DNA from: Entophlyctis helioformis
Taxonomy: Eukaryota; Chytridiomycota; Chytridiomycetes; Chytridiales; Chytriomycetaceae
Assembly: GCA_025526915.1 (NCBI GenBank)
Contig: JAHLKH010000249.1
Coordinates: 1 to 31,115, forward strand
Length of the DNA: 31,115 nt
Direction of reading: 5' to 3'
The notes beneath the pieces are model-generated. The model did not search any database and was not told the origin of the DNA. It was given only the letters and a program-made list of their open reading frames with translations. The first letter of the stretch is position 1. Every line of letters starts with the position of its first letter. Shown in pieces: positions 1 to 31,115 of the stretch. A program made the translations under genes and the position numbers.

Positions 1-33
1 CTGTGAGGTGTATCGGTGGACTGGCAGATAACA

Positions 34-109
34 CTGCAGTAGGGCTCTTAGATTCATTGGTTACATGGAGCAGAGGGGGTTCGGGACTACCTGCAGTAGG
101 GCTCTTAGA
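34..109. repeat. 19-nt direct repeat pair upstream of the Fanzor gene
   Basis: CTGCAGTAGGGCTCTTAGA occurs at 34-52 and again, identical, at 91-109. A shorter match (CTGCAGTAG) lies at 301-309. The repeats precede the first recognisable Fanzor coding sequence and may belong to the 5' part of the element, but no second copy of this region is available in the window for comparison. Confidence 0.6.
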
Positions 110-147
110 GAGCAGCTGGGGAAGATGGCATTGCGCGTAGCAGGCAA

Positions 148-3100
148 ATGGCAATGGCGGGTCGCGTGGCCGGGTGCCGCGGCTTTACACTCACAGAGAA
201 GCAGTTGAACGCGCTCAAGAAGAAGCTCGCAAAGGCAGCTGAAAAAGGCCGAGGCGAGGAAGGAAAGCAAGGCCAACAGGACAAAGTCAGGCCGGCTTGC
301 CTGCAGTAGTATACCTACTGGCTCGAGACGGGTGTAAGTGATGTATGCTCTGCCACGGGTCTTGAGTATGCTTGCTGACATGCGTGTTTTTGACAGATAC
401 GTGTTTCGCTCACGACGGGCACTACGTTTGAAGCTTGAGAAGATGGGCCGCATCATTACAGCGCGATTCATGACCCTCGTTGCGGCCATCGGTGAGAAAG
501 TGCGAAAATCTAAAAGGATTGCGACCAACCGACCTGCTGCGACCACAACCAATCGACCTGCTGTTGATGAGACTGATTGTCCAAGCTTCAGTAAGCTGCT
601 GCAGGTACGATTTAGGATTGCCATTCTGCCTGTCTGCATTGCTTTGCATGTGCTGACTCAGAGGTTGGCGTGATATCCAGGCCTTGTTGTCGAGTGACTC
701 AAAGAGCATCAAGGTGCTCGGCAGCGAAGCCAGGAAGACGCCAAAGAAATGGACGCGCCGTCTGATCGTCGAGGACACATTTGCAAAGGTGTACTCGTTC
801 ACGGTCGGTGCTCGGCAAGCCGGGCTTATTGTGATCGGCGCCCTCATTGAGGATCTGCTCGATCTCGACCTGGATGCGCCGCTCCCCCCAAGTACCACAT
901 GTACAAGTGGTTCAAAGGAGAGCAGGTCAGGCACTGTTTCTTGGACCTTGACTTCAAGGGCATCGACAATCTCGGCGACCATGCCAGCATCGACGGCCTC
1001 GGCGGCGTGACCAAGGCGCAGTTCTTGTCTGGACGATTTACCCTCAGAAAGGACGTCCTTGCACACCTCATGTACGGTTCAAGTTGTTACAATCAGGAGA
1101 GCATGGACCCTCGCTTTGGAGACCCGGTACAGCTGGCAACGGGCACGACGCTCGAGATCTGTCTGCACGAGAAGGTCGAGAAGCCCAAGACGGCCGAGGA
1201 GTCAAAGGACACTGAGGATGACGAGGACGCCGAAGAGTATGAGGACATTGAGGATGTCGAGGACGCCGAAGAGTATGAGGACGTTGAGGATGTCAATGAG
1301 TATGAGGACGCCGAGGACATTGACGATGCTGAGGACGCCGATCAGCCCGACATTCACGAGCAGCCTGAGCAGCAAGCAGCAGCAGCAGGACCACCAGCAG
1401 TGCCGACAGCCAACCAGCTGCTCACGGCATTCATCAGCAGCACCTCTGGTGGCGAGACGTCCGTGACCTGCATGCTACGCCACTTGTCGTACATCTTTAC
1501 TGGCAAGCAGATGGCTAAGCCAGATTTGAAGATGGAGACGACCAACGCGTGGATCGTCACGGCCATGCAGCTGATGTTCCATCGCGAATGGACGCGGGGG
1601 ATGGTGCACACCAACGCGGTCAAGGTGTATGAGACCAAGAAAGGCAAGCAGCAGGACGTCGCGATCCCGAAGGACATGCAGCAGGACGTCGCGCAACAGC
1701 CGGCTCTACCATACCTCCTGGACGGCAGCTTCTGCCCGGACGCAGTGAATGACATCTTTAGCAACCTCGCCAGAGAAGTGTGCACCATACTCGCACGCAC
1801 TACATTGGAAGTCAGTTCGACCTGGCGGTTGATGCGGCCCTCCAGCTGGTACCCGGTGCATCTTACGCGCAGGCAGTAGCGTGGGTTAAGCACCTGAAAC
1901 AGCAAGCCAAGGATGCCAAGACCGCCAAGGCTGCTGTTGCCAAGGCTGCTGTTGCCAAGCGTGCTGCCACCGACAACACCGAGTCAGGACCATCGGCGGC
2001 CAAGAAAGTGAGGTGCGAGAGCGTTGCGCCAGCCCCATCGACGGCCGCTCAGGATGCCACCCCTTCTAAAGCAACTCACAAGAGAGACCGGTCCAGCACT
2101 CCGTCAGCCAATGAGGGTGCTGCGAACAAGAAGCCATGCCACAAGAAGACTGCCAAGGACGCCACGTCAAGCACGCCTTCAGACACGGAGGGCAAGGTCA
2201 CTGTCGAGTACCTCCAGCATTGGACGTGCTTGCTGCAATCATGCTCGATGAGTCGCTGTCGCAGATCGGAAGGTTCAACGCGCTGGTCAACCTTGGTGGA
2301 CGAAGGAGCATCAAGCTGTGCCCGCAGCCATCCAGCCGCGATCCATTCGTCCTTGTCACCGAGACCACGCTCTTTTGGTCGGTGATGGGGACAAAGGATG
2401 AGCGCATGAATGGCAAGCAGGATCCAGCACTGAATGGATTGCGAAAGCGTCTCCTGGCCGCGATCAGCAGTAGGTCGCACTTGTTTATGCCATGCTTACA
2501 TGATGAGATACTAACACTCCACTCTTCTCAAAGAGCCTGGCTCACAGGCCTTGACACTCGAGTCATTCAACAGCGAGATCGAGCGCGCGTTCAGCTCAAG
2601 CCGCGAGCTGTGTGTCATGGACATCCTGCTTCCTGGACTCGCCTCGGACAAGCGACGGTATCAAACGCCGGCAGAGGCCCAAGCAGATATGGACGCGGCC
2701 AACGCCAAGGCAAAAGAAGACGCCATAGCCAAGGCGACGCAAGGGACTGATTATCGGCATATGACTCACGAGCAGCGTGAGGAGCATATTCAGGCTGTGA
2801 TCAAGGCTGTGCGTCCAGCGAGACCAACCAAGCGGACACGGCTGAGCAACGTCATGACGGATGGATACACCATCTGCCACTGGCTCTCGATTATCGCACA
2901 GACCGTCTAGAGTCGCCTTGCAGTATGTGCCGTGCTTGAATGTTTTGGTGTACACATTGGTTCTGACCACTGCCTTGCTCTGCAGGTTCCAAACGAGCAT
3001 CCAATAAGGCGTTTTCTGCCCAGCTTCAAAGCCTCATTGATGCGACTAATACTGGTGACTGCGAGCCTGATTACCTGAATGGCACATGTGAGTTGCTGTG

Positions 3101-4524
3101 CCAATCCAGACGCACACTTGTTGTCCACACCGACTGACATGCCATCCACAGCCGCCGATCCAGCCGACCCATCAGCCGCCAAGCCAAAAGCGACCAATCC
3201 TGTAAGTCACTTGCCTGCCAACCTCGCGCATTGGTGCACATGCATTGTGCATTCCTCACTCATGTCATGGCATGACAGGCCAGCGCAACTTTAATGCATC
3301 CCAGCGACTGCCCAATGTTGCTGATGCCAACAAGCTGTTCACCAACAAGGACTTTGTTCGCGTTGTCAGCTTTGATTGGGGCAAGCGGTACCTGTATGGC
3401 GCGTCCAGCATGCTGGTCAATGTCGAGGACAAGACATACACGATGGAGTCCAACTACGTGCTCTCCTCTGGCATGGCACGAGCCGAGCACAGCCTTCAGC
3501 GGTGGTATGCATGCAATGACTCTGCCACGCGCACTCTTGACCAGATCAACTCACAGTGCCTGCCTCCTGTGCCAGGCTCAACAATCGATATGCTAAGGCA
3601 ACTGACGTCCACGAGGTTATTGCATTCAAGACAGCAAAGCATGCCGATCCAAACGTCAAGCCTGGCGAGAGAGCCTTTTGGGATCTGCGCTGCCATGCGT
3701 ACTGCACGCCATTCCTGAATGCACGGGTACGTTTTCCCTGTTTCTGGATGCTCATTGCCATGACCGCCATGCTGCTTGATCGCCTGCTGATTGCACTGCA
3801 TGGCATGGCATGGCATGGCATTCCACAGAAGGTCAAGGCCGAGCGTTTTTCCATGCGCAGCAACAGCATGTCTGATTGCGGAAACGCTCTTGAGGGCATC
3901 ATGAATCTGGCAGGATCGAAGACTGGAGAGCGCGCATCTCATGCATCTCAAGGCCTCCCTGTCGACCGAACAAAGTCGCAAAGGACAACATTCCCGTTGT
4001 GTGGGCATTTGGCATTGACTTTACAGGCCAAGGTGGCCGGCACGCTGTGTTTGAGAAGTTTCTCATCAGGCATCTGCGGTCGTCTGGATATGCCTACGTG
4101 CGTCTGATGCCACGCTGTCCATCCATCTGTGCACCAACTGACCACACGATCATGCACACACACACAGATCTACCGCTGCAACGAGAACCTGACCAGCCAG
4201 ATGTGTCCGCAGTGCAAGCAGCGGATCCCAGACAAGAACCGCACCAACCTGCGACGCTACGAGTGCATACCATGCAAGACCGTCTACCACCGCGACGTGC
4301 TTGGAGCCACCAACATCGGGATGGTCGCACAGGGGCATCTGTTCCATGGACAACGACCGCTCTACTTGACGCACACGCCAGTCGATCCGCCTGTCATCCA
4401 GCAGCCTCCAGCACCGGATCAGCCTGTCGACCAGCGGCGTCCAAGACAGCCACAGCGTCCAAGCACAGCGTCCAGACAGCCACAGCGTGCCAGCAAGTCA
4501 CCTGTCACTCATCCCACACAGTGA
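148..4524 (+). pseudogene. Fanzor (TnpB-like RNA-guided nuclease) gene, multi-exon, frame-broken
   Basis: The 3' half shows the Fanzor/TnpB core: a RuvC-I motif SFDWGKRYLYGA (Asp codon 3374-3376); the block IPVVWAFGIDFTG; NENLTSQMCPQC with the alternative Glu at 4183-4185; a zinc ribbon with Cys codons at 4204, 4213, 4264 and 4273; and HRDVLGATNIGM with the RuvC-III Asp at 4294-4296. The N-terminal half has a lysine-rich start, a long acidic repeat (about 1190-1350) and a KKPCHKK-type basic stretch. Introns are inferred at 605-680, 2470-2533, 2923-2985, 3202-3278, about 3503-3573, 3727-3830 and about 4100-4167. Comparison with the right copy shows lesions near 890 (C run), 1793, 2205, 3278 and 3975 (frameshifts) and a TAG at 2908-2910. 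The start codon is uncertain (148 or 154). Known Fanzors are RNA-guided DNA endonucleases; activity from this copy is unlikely. Confidence 0.8.
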
Positions 4525-4533
4525 CTTGTTTGA

Positions 4534-5806
4534 CTACCACACTTTGAATCGGGGCACCTCCCGATCGACCAATAGGGTCACTTCAATAGAAGGTGAGCAT
4601 CTCGTTGGATGTGCCTCGCCCGCCTGTCGTCGCATGCTCTTGCTGACTCGAACCTTCCATCGTGTGATATGCGGGTTTGCATTCGACGCCTCTCGGGTCG
4701 AATTTAATTCCAAAATTCTTGGTAATTGTATGAATATCGGGCCCAAGAATGTATTATTGCGGGAACGCCTTTGGAGGGGTTGGCAAAGAAGGGGGCAGAG
4801 GAAGGGGGCAGAGGAAGGGATCGGCGGTGGGATTGGTGGCGGCGCTGATCCAGAAGCCGCCAACTGTCTTTTCATGTCTACAAGCTCCTTCTGCGCTGCC
4901 TCGAGTGCTTCGGACAGTTGTGCGATCCTGGCCTCGTTGGCGCTCGTCTCGCTCTGCAGCCGCTCGACCGCGTCGTCGAGGGCCATGCTCTTGTTTTTGG
5001 AGTTGCGACTCGTTCGCCAAGTCTCGCCAACTGCGTCCCCGTCGATGCACATGGCCGCGTAACGTATCAGTATTGTATGCCAGAGTGACCAGATCGCTTG
5101 TCCATCCTGGACGATTGTTCAAATAGGCCAAGCCAAGCCAAGCCAAGCCAAGCCAAGCCAAGCCAAGCCAAGCCAAACCATGCCATGCCAAGCCAAGCGC
5201 CATACCTATTGTCAGGGCCGTGACTGTAAAGATGATGCTTTCGGACATAAAGTCTGAGCCCAGTTCAACGGCTCTGATGTCGTTGAGCGGCCGGATCGGC
5301 TCGACGATCTTGTAGTCCAGGAACCGCATCTTGAGGCCCATATCGACTCGATGGTACATCTGTCGCGCAGGTGAGTGGCAGTCGGCGACCGCATCGCCAG
5401 GCCAGCCACACAGATGGGACTCACCTGCGCCACACCGATGCAGAAGTCCTTGAACTTTGGGTTGGTCTAGCAGAGTGCCGTGAGGCGGAGAGGGTCGTGG
5501 TTAGCACATGAGGCTGGCGATTGACCAACGCCGGGCTGGCTGGCAGACCAACCTTTGCCTGGGTGCGGTGCGGTCAAGTGCGGTGCGGTGCAAGCTGGGT
5601 CAGTCGGCTGTTTAATGAGCTGGCACCAGATAAACAGCACCGGGCGACGGCGGCATCGTGAGGCGAGCTGGCAGCCGTCGATGGGCAACCCGGTGCGTGT
5701 GGGCATGCAAGGGCCACTGCAGACTGACTCTGGCTTTGATGGTGTTTGCAAGCGGCTTCGACAGCGTCTTGATGAGCAGACTGCCGAGCTTGACGGTGGT
5801 GGCCAT
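4534..5806 (-). CDS. OPA3: OPA3-like mitochondrial protein with element-derived C-terminus
   Basis: Four exons join in phase: 5729-5806, 5425-5466, 5206-5359 and 4534-5030 (256 aa). The product starts MATTVKLGSLLIKTLSKPLA and continues with NPKFKDFCIGVAQ, MYHRVDMGLKMRFLDYK and a hydrophobic segment (SESIIFTVTALTIG), then GETWRTSRNS and a coiled coil (about residues 105-150). This is the order seen in OPA3 family proteins, which act at mitochondrial membranes. A proline-rich stretch follows. The frame has no stop in host DNA; it crosses 4743 and uses 69 codons antisense to the Fanzor tail, ending at a TAG at 4534-4536. The normal C-terminus has therefore probably been replaced by the insertion. 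Intron 3 carries an AGCCA minisatellite. The start codon is 34 bp from that of divergent NDUFB7. Confidence 0.85.
4541..4743 (+). ncRNA. Candidate Fanzor guide-RNA (omega RNA/fRNA) scaffold at element 3' end
   Basis: This non-coding tail begins 17 nt after the Fanzor stop codon and ends at the element boundary. By hand alignment it differs from the right copy's tail at about 16 of about 203 positions, far fewer than the neighbouring introns and C-terminal codons. Visible structure includes a 7-bp stem (ATTCGAC 4680-4686 with GTCGAAT about 4697-4703) and a small CCAA/TTGG hairpin (about 4710-4722) just before the terminal motif. In studied Fanzor/TnpB systems the scaffold RNA comes from the 3' end of the element and the guide from the flanking DNA; if so here, the guide would begin at 4744 with CAAGAATGTATT. 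It also overlaps the antisense 3' end of OPA3. The assignment is inference from position and conservation. Confidence 0.45.
5127..5198. repeat. AGCCA minisatellite in OPA3 intron 3
   Basis: About nine tandem copies of the pentamer AGCCA run from 5127 and degrade into variant copies (AACCATGCC) to about 5198. The array sits inside the last OPA3 intron (5031-5205), next to its 5' splice site at 5205. Confidence 0.9.
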
Positions 5807-13157: not shown

Positions 13158-13176
13158 GGCCCGATATTCATACAAT
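13158..13176 (-). repeat. Solo copy of the Fanzor element terminal motif
   Basis: On the - strand this reads ATTGTATGAATATCGGGCC, identical over 19 nt to both Fanzor element ends (4725-4743 on +, 26368-26386 on -). The following CAA-like bases are also shared. No further element sequence adjoins it: the side where the element would lie (13177 onward) does not resemble the element tail. It begins 16 nt after the MCY1 stop codon, directly behind the AATAAA signal. It may be a severely truncated insertion, a target site, or a shared 3'-end element. Confidence 0.7.
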
Positions 13177-16999: not shown

Positions 17000-23056
<6,057 letters not shown>

Positions 23057-25265: not shown

Positions 25266-26339
25266 CTATTGCACCAGCCCACGCGCCACAGCAATCTCGG
25301 CGTTCATGATGCTGCTGCCGGCCGCACCCAGGATGGTGTTGTGCGACAGCAGTGTCAGCTTGATGTCAAAGACGTTGCACGGACGCACACGCCCCACCAC
25401 GATCGCGTTGCCCTTGCCTGTGCCGAGATCCAGACGCGGCTGCGGCCGGTCAGGCGCCAGCGTCACCACGACGGCCTGCTGTGGCGCCGACGGCACGCCC
25501 AGACGCTGCGCCTCGCACACGTATGCAGAGAGAGCGGCCTGCACCTGCTCGACGGTCGGTGCGGGACGCTGCTTAAACTCGATGTTGACCGACTCGGTGT
25601 GTCCGTCAATGACGGCGACACGGTTGCAGCTGGCAGACACGCGCAGGTCGGGCGCCGCAACAAACGACGTGCGATCGCTGCTGATCGAGCCCAGGATCTT
25701 GCTCGCCTCTTCCTCCATCTTCTCCTCCTCGCCAGAGATGTGCGGCACGACGTTGCCGAGAATGTCCAGGCTGGGCACGCCGGGGTATCCGGCACCCGAG
25801 ATGGCCTGCATGGTCGTCACGACGACGCGCGAGAGCGGGCCAAAGGCGTCCATGAGCGGCTTCAGAGCGACAACCAGGCCGGTCGTGGAGCAGTTGGCGT
25901 TGGTGACCAGGAAGCCCTGGCGCAGGCCGTGCATCGACCGCTGGTGCGCAACGAGATCAAAATGGTCCGGATTCACCAGCGGCACAATCAGCGGCACAGT
26001 GGGGTCCATGCGGTGGTTCTTGGCGTTGGAGAGCACGCCCATGTCTGCGCGCATAAAGGCCAGCTCGACGTCGCCGGCCACCGACGAGTCGAGTCCCGAG
26101 AAGACGATGCGGCAGCCCTTGAATCGGGCGGGATCGCACGGCTCGATGGTGAGGGCAGCGGCCGCCGCGGGAATGGGCGTGTCGAGCTTCCAGTTGACGG
26201 TCGAGCCGTACGGCTTGCCGGCCGAGCGCTCGGACGCACCGACGGCCTGCACAAAGAACAGCGGGTGGTTGTCGAGCAGCTGGATGAAGCGCTGGCCAAC
26301 GGTGCCGGTCGCTCCCAGAACGCCGACGGGGATGCTCAT
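25266..26339 (-). CDS. HOM2: Aspartate-semialdehyde dehydrogenase
   Basis: A single-exon gene of 357 aa, the usual length for fungal Hom2. It starts MSIPVGVLGATGTVGQRFIQ with the NADP-binding GxxGxxG loop. The catalytic Cys lies in VTNANCSTTGL (about residue 155), followed by ISGAGYPGVPSLDILGN and the C-terminal dimer-domain sequences DGHTESVNIEF and LGAAGSSIMNAE. The enzyme reduces aspartyl phosphate to aspartate semialdehyde, the branch point towards threonine, methionine and, where present, lysine. The chosen ATG matches the family start; the frame is open upstream into the Fanzor element but without homology. Only 28 bp separate the ATG from the element's end, so the native promoter has been displaced or the element now contributes the 5' leader. 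It is intronless, unlike its neighbours. Confidence 0.95.
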   Translation of the reverse strand: MSIPVGVLGATGTVGQRFIQLLDNHPLFFVQAVGASERSAGKPYGSTVNWKLDTPIPAAAAALTIEPCDPARFKGCRIVFSGLDSSVAGDVELAFMRADMGVLSNAKNHRMDPTVPLIVPLVNPDHFDLVAHQRSMHGLRQGFLVTNANCSTTGLVVALKPLMDAFGPLSRVVVTTMQAISGAGYPGVPSLDILGNVVPHISGEEEKMEEEASKILGSISSDRTSFVAAPDLRVSASCNRVAVIDGHTESVNIEFKQRPAPTVEQVQAALSAYVCEAQRLGVPSAPQQAVVVTLAPDRPQPRLDLGTGKGNAIVVGRVRPCNVFDIKLTLLSHNTILGAAGSSIMNAEIAVARGLVQ

Positions 26340-26367
26340 GATGAGTTTTGGGGAAACGGCTGCTTTT

Positions 26368-26571
26368 GGCCCGATATTCATACAATTACCAAGGATTTTG
26401 GAGTTAAATTCGACCCAAGAGGCGACGGATGCAAGCCCACATATCACACGATGGAAGGTTCGAGTCAGCAACGAGCATGCGACGACAGGCGGGCGAGGCA
26501 CATCCAACAAGCATCTCACCTTCTATTGAAGTGACCCGTTAGGTCGATCGGGAGGTTCCCCGATTCAAAGT
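26368..26571 (-). ncRNA. Candidate Fanzor guide-RNA scaffold, right copy
   Basis: This is the non-coding tail of the right element, about 92% identical by hand count to 4541-4743, with the CCAA/TTGG hairpin kept while its loop changed. The 7-bp stem seen in the left copy is partly disrupted here. If the Fanzor rule holds, the guide would start at 26367 and read AAAAGCAGCCG towards the HOM2 start codon. A GAGTCA/TGACTC motif (Gcn4-like half of the consensus) lies at 26462-26467. Confidence 0.45.
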
Positions 26572-26673
26572 GTTGTTGTTGGCAGACATGGCAGCATGAT
26601 CTGATCCCATGAGGCCACATGCGACTTGAAGGGAAGCAGATCAGGTGACGGAGGCTGCTGGACGACAGGCTGA

Positions 26674-29600
26674 TCAGGCGGTGTCGCGAGCAGCATGATG
26701 TGATGTTGTGCACGCCGCTGGATGAGATATGATTGCCCGATGTCTGCAGGTCTCTGGCGTGGCTGGATTGCTGTCGGCTTTGGTGTGTGTCAAGTAGAGC
26801 GGCCGGTGTCCAAACAGCAGATGCCACAGTGCGACCATTCCGATGTTGGTGGCTCCAAGCACGTCTCGGTGGTAGACGGTGGTGCAGTCTGTGCACTCGT
26901 AGCGTCGCAGGTTGGTGCGGTTCTCGTATGGGATCCGCTGCTTGCACTGCGGGCACATCTGGCTGGTCAGGTTCTCGTTGCAGCGGTAGATCTGTGTGTG
27001 TGTGCATGATCGTGTGGTCAGTTGGTGCACAGATGGATGGATGGATGGCATGGCATATCCAGACGCACATAGGCACATCCAGACGACCACAGATGCCTGA
27101 TGAGAAAGTTCTCAAACACAGCGTGCCGGCCACCTTGGCCTGTAAAGTCAATGCCAAATGCCCACACAACGGGAATGTCCTTCTCTGTTGGCTTGTCACA
27201 GCGGCCTTGAGATGCAGCTGATGCGCGCTTGCCAGTGGTCGAGCCTGCCAGCTTCATGATGCCCTCAAGAGCGTTTCCGCGATCAGACATGCGTTGCACG
27301 CATGGGAACCGCTTGGCCTTGACCTTCTGTGGAATGCCATGTCATGCCATGCCATCCAGTGCAATCAGCAGGCGATCAAGTAGCATGGCGGTCATGGCAA
27401 TGGGCATCCAGAAACAGGGAAAACGTACCCGTGCATTCAGGAATGGCGTGCAGTACGCATGGCAGCGCAGATCCCAAAAGGCTCTCTCGCCAGGCTTGAC
27501 GTTTGGATCGGCATGCTTTGCTGTCTTGAATGCAATAACCTCGTGGACGTCGGTTGCCTTAGCATATCGATTGTTGAGCCTGGCACAGGAGGCAGGCACT
27601 GTGAGTTGATCTGGTCAAGAGTGCGCGTGGCAGAGTCATTGCATGCATACCACCGCTGAAGGCTGTGCTCGGCTTGTGCCATGCCAGAGGAGAGCACGTA
27701 GTTGGACTCGAGGGTATAGGTGAAGGTTGCCAGATCGACCAGCATGCTGGACGCGCCATACATGTACCGCTCGCCCCAATCAATGCCGACAATCCGCACA
27801 AACCGGTAGCCCTTGTTGGTGAACAGGTTGTTGGCTTTGATGATGTCGCGCAGTCGCTGCGAGGCGTAGAAGCTGAGCTTGCCCTGTCATGCCATGACAT
27901 GAGTGAGGAATGTGCAATGCATGTGCACCAAAGTGCGAGGTTGGCATGCAAGTGGCTTACAGGATTGGGCGTGTATGGCTTGGCGGCTGACAGGTCGGCA
28001 GGATCGGCAGCTGTGGATGGCATGTCAGTCGGTGTGGACAACAAGTGGCGTCTGGATTGGCACAGCAACTCACATTCGCCATCCATTGATCATGCCCATC
28101 ATGCCCATCATGCCCATCATCATCGTCATCGTCATCATCAGGCATGCCATCAGCAAGGCTGGGCTGCTCGCCTAAAGATGCCATGTTGGAGCATGCAGAT
28201 CAAGGCGGCAGTCAGAACCAATGTGTGCACCAAAGCATTCAAGCACGCCACATACTGCGTGGCGACTCTGGACGGTCTGTGCGATAGTCAGCGCCAGCTG
28301 AAGATGCTGTATCCGTCCGTCCGGAAGCTGCCCACCGCGGTCGGTTTGCTTGGACTTGCAGGAGGAAGACCATCGATCACGGCGTCTATAAACTCCTGGC
28401 GCTCCTTGCCAACCAGACCCTCGTGCTCAGCCAGTTGCATCGCATCAGCAATGACTGCGTCATTTGCTTGGACCTGCTCAAACACCTCCTTGTCGGCCTC
28501 GTCTGGCGTCTGATAGCGGCCTTTCTTGGGGCGGAGGCCGGGAAGGAGTATGTTGAGGATACGAGCTCCTTGCTATTGCTGAACGCCTTCTTGATCGTCC
28601 TGTTGGATGATGCGAGGCCCAAGCTGGCTTTTTGGTAGTCTTGGATAAAAGTGGAGTGTCAGCATCATATCATGTAGACATGGCATAAACAAGTGCGACC
28701 TACTGAGTACAGCAAGGAGCTGCAGTCGCAAGTATGCCAAAGCAGCACTTTGCTCGCCACGGATGCGATCACACTACTCCCCATCACCGCCCAAAAGAGC
28801 GTTGTCTCGGTGATGAGGATGAAGGGATCGCGGCTGGCTGCTTGCGGGCACAGCTTGTTTGTCGTGCCAGCAAGCTTGGACAGCTCGTAAAAGATCACGA
28901 TCTCTGACCGAGACACATCAGGCACAAGCGTCTTGAGCTCGTGCAGCTCTTGCGGGACTGTATCAATACCACTGTCCTCAGTGGCCGAGGAAGAGCTGGA
29001 TGCCGCGTCCTTGGTGGTGGCTGCCTTCCTGCCCCGTCGCTTCTTGGGCCTGCCGCCCTTGTTGGCTGACGAAGAGGTGGACCGGCCCCGCTTGAGACTT
29101 GAGGTGGGAGGAGCAGTATCCAAAGTGGCCAGCGGTGTGGCGTCCTCAATCGCCGGTGGTGTAGCGTCCTTGGCAGCCTTGGCAGCAGCAGCCTTGGCGG
29201 CCTTGGCAGCCTTGGCGGTCTTGAAAAGTGCCGCAATCCACACTCTCACGTCCTCAATGGATGCACTGGGCATCAGCTTGAGGGCTGCAGTGACGGCCAG
29301 CTCAGACTGGCTAGAGATGTAGTGCCGCGCAAGCATGCCACACACATCCCTGGCCAGATTGCTGTAAATGTCGTGCCTTGCATTCGCGCAAAGGCTGCCA
29401 TCAAGCCTGTAGGGCAAGACAGCCTCCATAGTGCCCGCGTGCACAGCGTCTGCCGTCTGCGCACTTGTGTGCATCAAGGCCGACAGCTCTGCATCTGCCT
29501 GCACCACGGCTGACAGGATCGCGTCGGCCTGGATTGTCACCGTCTGCTGCGTCGCGTCCATCATGTCGGCATCCATCATGGCTGCTCGCATCGTGTCCAT

Positions 29601-31115
29601 CTGTGCCATGTCCATCATGGCTGCTTGCCGCGCGTCTTTCTGGAACGTGTCGCTGTGCCGTGGCCGCCTGCTGCATTGCATCAATCAGTGACATGTCCAT
29701 CAGCATCGTGCACGTCTGCATCATGTCCATCCGTACCGTGTCATCCTGCAGCTTGGCTGCGTTGGTTTGCAGCACCCTCCGCGTCCAGGTGCGATGGATC
29801 GTCATTTGCATGACTGTTACGATCCAGGAGTGGATGGCATGCTTGGTGCTTCGGCTGCACCATCATGCTGTCCGCCAGGACATAGCCAAGATGGCGCAGC
29901 AGCATGTCCACAGCACCGCCTCCACCTGATATACTGCTGGTGAGGGCCGTAAGCAGCTCATTTGCTGATGGAACTGCTGCTGCTGGTGGTGGTGGTGGCG
30001 GTTGGACGGCTGAAGATGAAGCGCCGGTGCTGCTGGCTGCTGTTGGCTGATTGTGCACATCATGGTCGTCCTGGATGCATGGGTCGTCAGGCTGCACAGG
30101 CAGCTTGTGCTCATCGTGCTCGTCCTGCTCGTCGTGTTCATCCTGCTCATCCTGCTCGTCCTGCTCGTTCTGCTCGTCCTGATCGTCGAGGTCGCCATGC
30201 ATGTTGGGTTGCTTGGCAATCTTGGCAGTATCAAAGGCGCAGATCTTGAGAGCCGTGTCACTGTCGAGAGTCACCAAGCTGCCATAGCGAGGGATCTTTG
30301 TGTCGCTGCTGTGCGGGCCGGTGCCGTACATGTGCCAAACAATGATGCCCTGCTTGTGAATGCATCCACCTGACAAGAGCGTCGCGCTCTCGTCCTCATC
30401 AAAGTCCTCCGGGTTGACATAGTAATACTGCGTCAGCTTGCCTTGGCTTGCCTCCAGGACACAGTACTCCAGAGGCAGAGGCGCGTCTGCATCAGCTTGA
30501 CCAGATCCGCGACCATGGCGCCGATCAAGGCAAGGGCAGCACGCCACAAGCCGGCCGTGAATAGTAGACTGTGAGGGTGGTGTTGTGGCTGATTGAACTG
30601 GGTGTCTGTTCGGCGAGTGGTGTCTTGGTTTGGGGCCCAAAAAACTTGGTGTTTGCGAGATCGCATGACTGCATCTCCTGCATACCACACAAGTCAGCAT
30701 CCACAAAGCCAAGCAAACAGAGCAGCATGCCGATCAAACCCCATACCGCCATTTTGACAATCTGCTCAGGGCGGCTGTGTGCATTGCCTTTAGGTCTTGG
30801 CTGTCCTTTGGGATGGGTGGCCGCGGCAAGTGTCATGACTGGCATCGCAATCATGCGGCCGAGCTTTGCAAGCTTCTGACGAGTTGCCACTCGACTGCCA
30901 GCAACCCATCTGTGGCATGACACACGTGTCAGCAAGCACATTCAAGGCACATGACATGCCATATGTCGCGTACGCCTTCTTCTTGCCAACAGTTCCGCCT
31001 TGCGAGCATGCAGGCCTGACTTCTTCTTGTTCTCTCTGATGATCTCCTGTAGTGTGGCCTTCTCTTTTTTCTTGGCACGCTCCTTTGTGTGCGCAGCCCG
31101 CTTGGCTGCCGTGAA
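26674..31115 (-). pseudogene. Fanzor nuclease gene, right copy, N-terminal half frame-broken
   Basis: The RuvC half appears intact across introns: IVGIDWGERYMYGA (Asp codon 27779-27781), IPVVWAFGIDFTGQGG, NENLTSQMCPQC (alternative Glu at 26974-26976), zinc-ribbon cysteines, and HRDVLGATNIGM (RuvC-III Asp at 26863-26865), ending at a stop at 26674. The N-terminal half shows lesions relative to the left copy: near 30530 and 30495 (frameshifts around the A(L)IGAMVADLVK block), 29835, 28566 and 28305. It also carries a (DEQ/DEH)n acidic repeat (30100-30190) and a Met/Asp-rich insertion (29480-29690) missing from the left copy. The C-terminus after the zinc ribbon differs from the left copy. The 5' end is cut by the window. 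A full-length active nuclease is unlikely; a truncated RuvC-domain product is conceivable. Confidence 0.8.
30100..30195 (-). repeat. Acidic-codon tandem repeat in right Fanzor gene
   Basis: Short repeats coding for Asp-Glu-Gln and Asp-Glu-His (DEQDEQDEHDEQDEH) occupy the linker where the left copy has a different, longer repeat unit (EDAEEYEDIEDVEDAEEYED, about 1219-1330). The position is conserved but the repeat unit is not. Confidence 0.8.

Follow-up and report, generated by a model that had tools for sequence, protein, structure and literature searches.

The locus and its two element copies

The stretch of DNA analysed here (the window) corresponds to the complete contig C249 of the chytrid Entophlyctis helioformis (Chytridiomycota), 31,115 bp from a genome of 29.57 Mb in 482 contigs, and it holds two copies of a repeated, intron-rich element coding for a nuclease of the TnpB/Fanzor type. 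The left copy occupies positions 1–4743 on the plus strand and ends in a 3′ terminus that it has in common with other copies, with unique flanking sequence beyond 4743, and the right copy occupies positions 26368–31115 on the minus strand; the initial annotation of this stretch had let the copies end at 4524 and 26674, which has to be corrected. Both copies are front-truncated, and the front part of the gene is absent from them because the contig ends inside them, its left edge in the left copy and its right edge in the right one. Likeness of the left copy to a fuller sister copy elsewhere in the genome (L035) begins at position 176. Conserved 3′ terminal blocks close both copies (4533–4743, plus strand; 26368–26579, minus strand) and are matched by the genome-wide search with this block, that of the left copy being where a putative guide RNA would be expected.

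The contig has one copy of the same repeat at each of its ends, and the assembly was therefore probably broken at these elements.

The RuvC half, its zinc ribbon and its introns

The catalytic half of the left copy is contained in four exons on the plus strand. The first (3279–3504), delimited by motif and splice model, carries FDWGKRY with the catalytic aspartate codon at 3374–3376; the second (3576–3726) has junctions that match the NCBI gene models P0002, P0003 and P0006; the third (3829–4097) is frame-broken near 3978–3996, its counterpart in the right copy being open; and the fourth (4168–4524), recognized by Pfam family PF07282 and with a junction as in P0004, holds CNENLTSQMCPQC with the glutamate codon at 4183–4185, the zinc ribbon CPQC...CIPC, YHRDVLGATNIGM with the last aspartate codon at 4294–4296, and a low-complexity tail. 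The right copy shows the corresponding motifs IDWGERY, NENLTSQMCPQC, CTDC and HRDVLGATNIGM on the minus strand, and all four of its RuvC exons are open. These were placed by the splice model at 27651–27872 (IDWGERY; the start is at 27883 by the junction of the NCBI models), 27429–27579, 27069–27326 and 26828–26991, the last of which, supported also by PF07282, contains the glutamate, the zinc ribbon and the final aspartate and has an approximate model end.

Against a curated cut-off of 26.3 bits, PF07282 scores 38.3 bits at 4165–4317 in the left copy and 40.5 bits at 26842–26994 in the right copy, which, together with the motifs themselves, bears out the earlier statement that both copies carry a RuvC triad and a zinc ribbon. 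The spliced C-terminus of L035 reaches 43.6 bits (E 3.4e-11). A profile search with spliced exons, to which the initial annotation had looked for placing the protein, gave a divided answer, in that PF07282 lies over its cut-off while the NCBIfam TnpB models (guided_TnpB, 9.5e-7; IS200_TnpB, 7.4e-6) lie far under their strict ones; the model Zn_ribbon_IS1595 falls on the zinc ribbon of the L035 model at E 0.19. Sequence matches in the PDB are weak, the best (E 0.51) being to the TnpB-like TranC and none to Fanzors. At motif level, the triad follows the order D, E before TNB, D in both window copies. The position of the glutamate beside the zinc ribbon had been taken as a mark of Fanzors, which it is not, as Fanzor (Fz), TnpB and Cas12a share the layout of D, E before TNB and D according to the excerpt of PMC11423790 at hand. 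What stands of the Fanzor call is thus an intron-rich nuclease of TnpB/Fanzor type in a chytrid.

Four introns interrupt the RuvC half of the left copy on the plus strand, and each of the four has a junction that is also present in NCBI gene models from the same genome: intron 1 at 3202–3278 (P0002, P0007 and P0008), intron 2 at 3505–3575 (P0002, P0003 and P0006), intron 3 at 3727–3828 (P0002, P0003, P0005 and P0006) and intron 4 at 4098–4167 (P0004). Their positions are identical in the right copy, as had been noticed before. Farther upstream, a rough splice model from sequence predicts exons for a variable middle of the protein at 178–305, 397–499, 681–925, 988–1777, 1903–1960, 2116–2469 and 2534–2808 (plus strand), and counts 10 exons for the left copy as far as the frame break, in line with the earlier figure of at least seven introns. 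Splicing is accordingly older than the separation of the copies; the initial annotation had spoken of domestication at this point, but what was spliced is a multi-copy transposon and no domesticated host gene.

Copies and ends across the genome

The searches for the element scored the best candidates only, and the genome counts are lower bounds. The RuvC half gave 55 matches when 40 of 275 candidates were scored, the 3′ terminal block gave 40 when 40 of 212 were scored, and the zinc ribbon exceeded the PF07282 cut-off at every one of 150 scored places (205 candidates), so that the element family occupies at least 150 places in the genome. Searches at the protein level returned one relative for the N-terminal half and seven for the RuvC half, all of them hypothetical proteins of E. 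helioformis.

The 55 distinct 3′ ends fall into two classes, with 29 ending in GAATATCGGGCC or a variant of it (class 1) and 26 carrying an additional tail of ~50 nt that finishes in CCCACCCCTC (class 2). Three class-2 copies (L037, L039 and L035) could be extended upstream to elements of ~9.8–9.9 kb, so that the genome-wide search for an intact copy, proposed as a check in the initial annotation, did turn up complete elements. The terminal inverted repeat (TIR) of L037 consists of GAGGGGGGGGTAATTG, which matches the reverse complement of the 3′ end GAGGGGTGGGCAATAG at 13 of 16 positions; L039 ends in the same way with a G-run two bases longer, and L035 is without the outermost bases. The 5′ 1.4–1.5 kb of the complete elements was found at no fewer than 40 places, with 40 of 92 candidates scored.

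The N-terminal domain and its linkage to the RuvC half

The initial annotation could not match the N-terminal half to any described Fanzor; in complete copies elsewhere, this half runs on into a domain that resembles the flap endonuclease (FEN) and XPG family. This domain carries seven acidic residues, invariant in all three sequences compared, in the order of the acidic positions of FEN1, and for the better of two AlphaFold2 (AF2) models of it 47 of 50 rows of the structural comparison are 5′-nucleases. On these residues and low-confidence models, it is predicted to be a FEN/XPG-like nuclease that may cut DNA. A genome scan with PF12813 matched three stretches, on contigs C1 and C38, and none of the elements.

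The NCBI gene model P0001 comprises the N-terminal domain only, and P0002–P0008 comprise later parts only. P0001 matches at least 218 genomic stretches, with 116 out of 403 candidates scored, and the listed ones merge to 85 places. At 32 of these, a listed RuvC or 3′-end place lies at most 16 kb downstream, on the same strand in all 32 cases, versus zero in the wrong-side control; for the other 53 places there was none among the places listed. In both L039 and L035, splice modelling yields a single open frame across ~7.4 kb, which begins at an N-terminal ATG and closes at the stop codon of the RuvC half. The model trained on exons of the family yields 19 exons and 1,750 amino acids for L039 and 21 exons and 1,741 amino acids for L035, and a codon table excluding these two copies still yields frames of 1,639 and 1,508 codons, respectively, with the real scores (109 and 81) standing against a maximum of 2.8, and of 78 codons, in 12 shuffles. 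The model of L037 is shorter (1,059 amino acids), and its exon 4 has one base fewer than that of L039.

Both halves are under purifying selection. The ratio of nonsynonymous to synonymous substitution rates (dN/dS), calculated with alignment pieces containing stops left out, is 0.20–0.38 for the N-terminal exons (three pairs, dS being saturated at above 2 in two) and 0.45–0.62 for the RuvC exons (seven pairs), and these low values mean that each half has served as useful coding sequence. On balance, we favour the reading that both copies in the window are truncated at the front and belong to a high-copy transposon of ~10 kb, whose gene likely specifies a single spliced protein in which a putative FEN1/XPG-like 5′-nuclease precedes a putative RNA-guided RuvC nuclease of the TnpB/Fanzor type.

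Weighing of the reading and its alternatives

A number of results weigh against this reading, and they concern the mobility of the element, the unity of its gene and the nature of the N-terminal domain. With regard to mobility, no transposase family passes the Pfam cut-off in any of the four L035 model sections searched, where a diverged or trans-acting one is possible, and there is no obvious target-site duplication in the three elements of which both ends were read. A guide RNA at the 3′ end finds no clear support in the fold of the 3′ block, for which RNAalifold gives a z of −1.87 over 55 copies, with 2 of 40 shuffles as low, and a covariation of 0.12 versus a null mean of 0.53; the Rfam scan of the window has no match at the gathering threshold.

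A different mode of spread would have the copies ending in GAATATCGGGCC multiply not by cut-and-paste but from one end or by target priming, in the manner of Helitrons or of long interspersed nuclear elements (LINEs). Class-1 copies have an exact 3′ end and a variable front truncation, and the first four bases of their 3′ flanks are A-rich (A makes up 52% in a set of 26 flanks, 24 from class 1 and two from class-2 tails). The genome has 63 exact copies of the 18 nt that close class 1, versus none of the reversed pattern used as a control, and 10 of the 63 are without a RuvC half upstream among the places listed; one of these lies in the window at 13158–13175 (minus strand), far from both copies, as a bare motif that has no element upstream and is followed by AAGA. 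There is also a precedent, on the excerpt of PMC3627910 available, in the one-ended Fanzor1 families associated with Helitrons in Chlamydomonas, which the class-1 pattern may resemble, on thin evidence. Set against this, seven front-truncated copies could be read at both ends and none has a duplication adjoining both; the four searched sections of the L035 model contain no Rep, helicase or reverse transcriptase; and introns are retained, from which it follows that spliced mRNA was not the template. We consider one-ended spread of these copies less likely than not.

As to the unity of the gene, the NCBI gene models of the N-terminal and the RuvC halves are separate fragments, and the element of 9.9 kb has room for two adjacent genes, a FEN/XPG-like one upstream and a TnpB/Fanzor one downstream, whose products would never be one protein. 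The single spliced frame across ~7.4 kb in two diverged copies speaks against such an arrangement, although the splice model presupposes one gene with a single frame; because the frame is forced in this way, the two-gene layout retains some probability. The division seen in the NCBI models may, on the other hand, come from broken models of decayed copies, and we regard two genes as rather unlikely, a notch below one-ended spread.

The assignment of the N-terminal domain is contested by its sequence. The best Pfam match of P0001 is XPG_I_2 with E 0.038 and 13.9 bits versus a cut-off of 24.2, Pfam recognizes nothing in the domain as it stands in L035, and scans of P0001 with PHROGs and NCBIfam have no match either. 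Searches of the PDB with phmmer (with an approximate query that contains a few intron residues) and with a profile returned no nuclease, and in alignments to FEN1 with hhalign, column shuffles did as well in 6 of 40 local and 37 of 40 global comparisons. Both AF2 models are poor (pLDDT 58 and 55), with a structural Z always below 8 and no Foldseek match of either at E 0.001 or better; the first model has 5′-nucleases in 15 of 50 structural rows, ranked under helical dynein rows, and no FEN among the 50 matches listed by Foldseek. Since the sequence tests for FEN fail for the L035 version too, confidence in the favoured reading is slightly lowered.

If the N-terminal domain is nonetheless of XPG type, it could belong to the transposition machinery of an Academ-type TIR transposon, with the RuvC half acting as a transposase that is not RNA-guided. 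Academ transposons carry an XPG nuclease and a transposase of their own and are not known to have a zinc ribbon of TnpB type; on that general background, they would be an earlier example of a TIR transposon equipped with such a nuclease. The short TIRs on two complete elements would agree with such an origin, as would the fact that no other enzyme was recognized in the L035 model sections searched. The zinc ribbon and triad of TnpB type do not, nor does the lack of a visible target-site duplication, and nothing relevant on XPG nucleases on transposons, Academ included, was found in the open-access literature searched; we hold this explanation to be improbable. Slightly more improbable still is an ordinary Fanzor with a lineage-specific, non-nuclease N-terminal extension and coincidental FEN-like motifs, which would account for the failed sequence tests of FEN homology, an XPG_I_2 score under the cut-off and structural models of low confidence, but would make a strong coincidence of seven ordered acidic residues in three of three sequences and of the 5′-nuclease rows.

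Mosaic copies, conserved introns and a possible mechanism

The copies differ in a mosaic fashion along their length. L035 and L039 are 90–96% identical over the 5′ 1.5 kb, 61–78% over the next 6.5 kb and 85–90% over the last 2 kb, and in four more pairs, compared over the back part only (wl, wr, L032 and L033), identity rises from 52–81% to 80–95% towards the RuvC exons. Repair that copies from other elements would leave homogenized ends of this kind, which may also have come from other types of recombination. A second peculiarity lies in the introns. Over 52 copies (identical rows and loci with ≤900 mapped positions dropped), mean pairwise diversity in the RuvC half is 0.067 in introns with splice sites removed, compared with 0.107 at first, 0.069 at second and 0.135 at third codon positions, and the zinc-ribbon exon, at 0.050, is the sole exon below the introns. 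For the N-terminal half, the comparison of L035 with L037 gives an identity of 83.7% in introns and 68.7% in exons, and that of L035 with L069 gives 65.4% and 58.1%. Candidate explanations for introns conserved above exons are constrained intronic RNA or regulatory sequence.

The favoured reading of one spliced protein can be carried further to a proposal that joins these observations, namely that a single protein with two nucleases serves as a natural cut-and-resect machine, which homes and homogenizes its own ends genome-wide while its introns are constrained more than its exons. This is put forward tentatively, with about as much to be said against it as for it, if not slightly more. In the mechanism proposed for the favoured reading itself, RNA from the 3′ end of the element and its flank would guide the RuvC half to cut the matching element-free site, following which the FEN-like half would trim 5′ ends or flaps, and repair off the element-bearing copy would restore or spread the element. 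If true, the FEN-like fusion would be a sign that one protein can couple RNA-guided cutting with the processing of ends, and genome editing would gain a natural fusion to try out. Because the element is so abundant and its ends are homogenized, the role of the nuclease is testable within one genome, and introns conserved beyond synonymous sites would be a puzzle of their own.

Neighbouring genes in the window

The 3′ end of the right copy lies 28 bp ahead of the ATG of a neighbouring gene (region 26300–26375), which from its sequence we take to be aspartate-semialdehyde dehydrogenase-like, and at this distance the promoter of the neighbour may be affected. A long open frame rich in glutamine repeats (19046–23056, plus strand) continues a kinase-like gene and looks like a kinase of the DYRK/Yak1 type.

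Comparison with known systems

The literature available offers no direct counterpart of the proposed protein. No FEN–Fanzor fusion appears in the listed titles or abstract openings of the open-access literature searched (subscription papers lying outside this scope); the text of PMC3627910 never mentions XPG, exonuclease or intron, and that of PMC10711439 has no intron, chytrid, copy number, XPG, exonuclease or fusion. As far as excerpts of the two papers go, Fanzors ride on many kinds of transposon, including Helitron and Sola2 (PMC3627910), and their role for the host transposon remains to be tested (PMC10432273, Discussion).

For each half of the protein taken by itself, there are known relatives to compare. 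TnpB of IS200/IS605 and IS607 is alike in its zinc ribbon and triad, whereas the E. helioformis protein is spliced, eukaryotic, much longer and far under the NCBIfam cut-offs. FEN1, XPG and EXO1 are alike in the order of acidic residues and in the structural rows, with no significant sequence match. In the families CRe-1, 2 and 3 described by Bao and Jurka in the consulted part of PMC3627910, the Chlamydomonas elements are one-ended and front-truncated and insert beside TTTT-like sites with frequent duplications; they thus share the fixed 3′ end and the front truncation, while TTTT-like sites and duplications were not seen in the examined E. helioformis copies.

The closest comparison is with the Fanzor1 and Fanzor2 proteins and with SPu-1 of another chytrid, Spizellomyces punctatus, which are alike in the D/E/D triad, the glutamate before a zinc ribbon of TnpB type, the carriage on a transposon and the chytrid host, as far as the excerpts of PMC3627910 and PMC11423790 show. 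SPu-1 is an element of ~2.1 kb with one open frame of 633 amino acids, 33-bp TIRs and 17 full-length copies (PMC3627910, in part). Unlike it, the E. helioformis element measures ~9.9 kb, has ~20 predicted exons with 1,500–1,750 codons and a FEN-like N-terminus, and its zinc ribbon is found at no fewer than 150 places.

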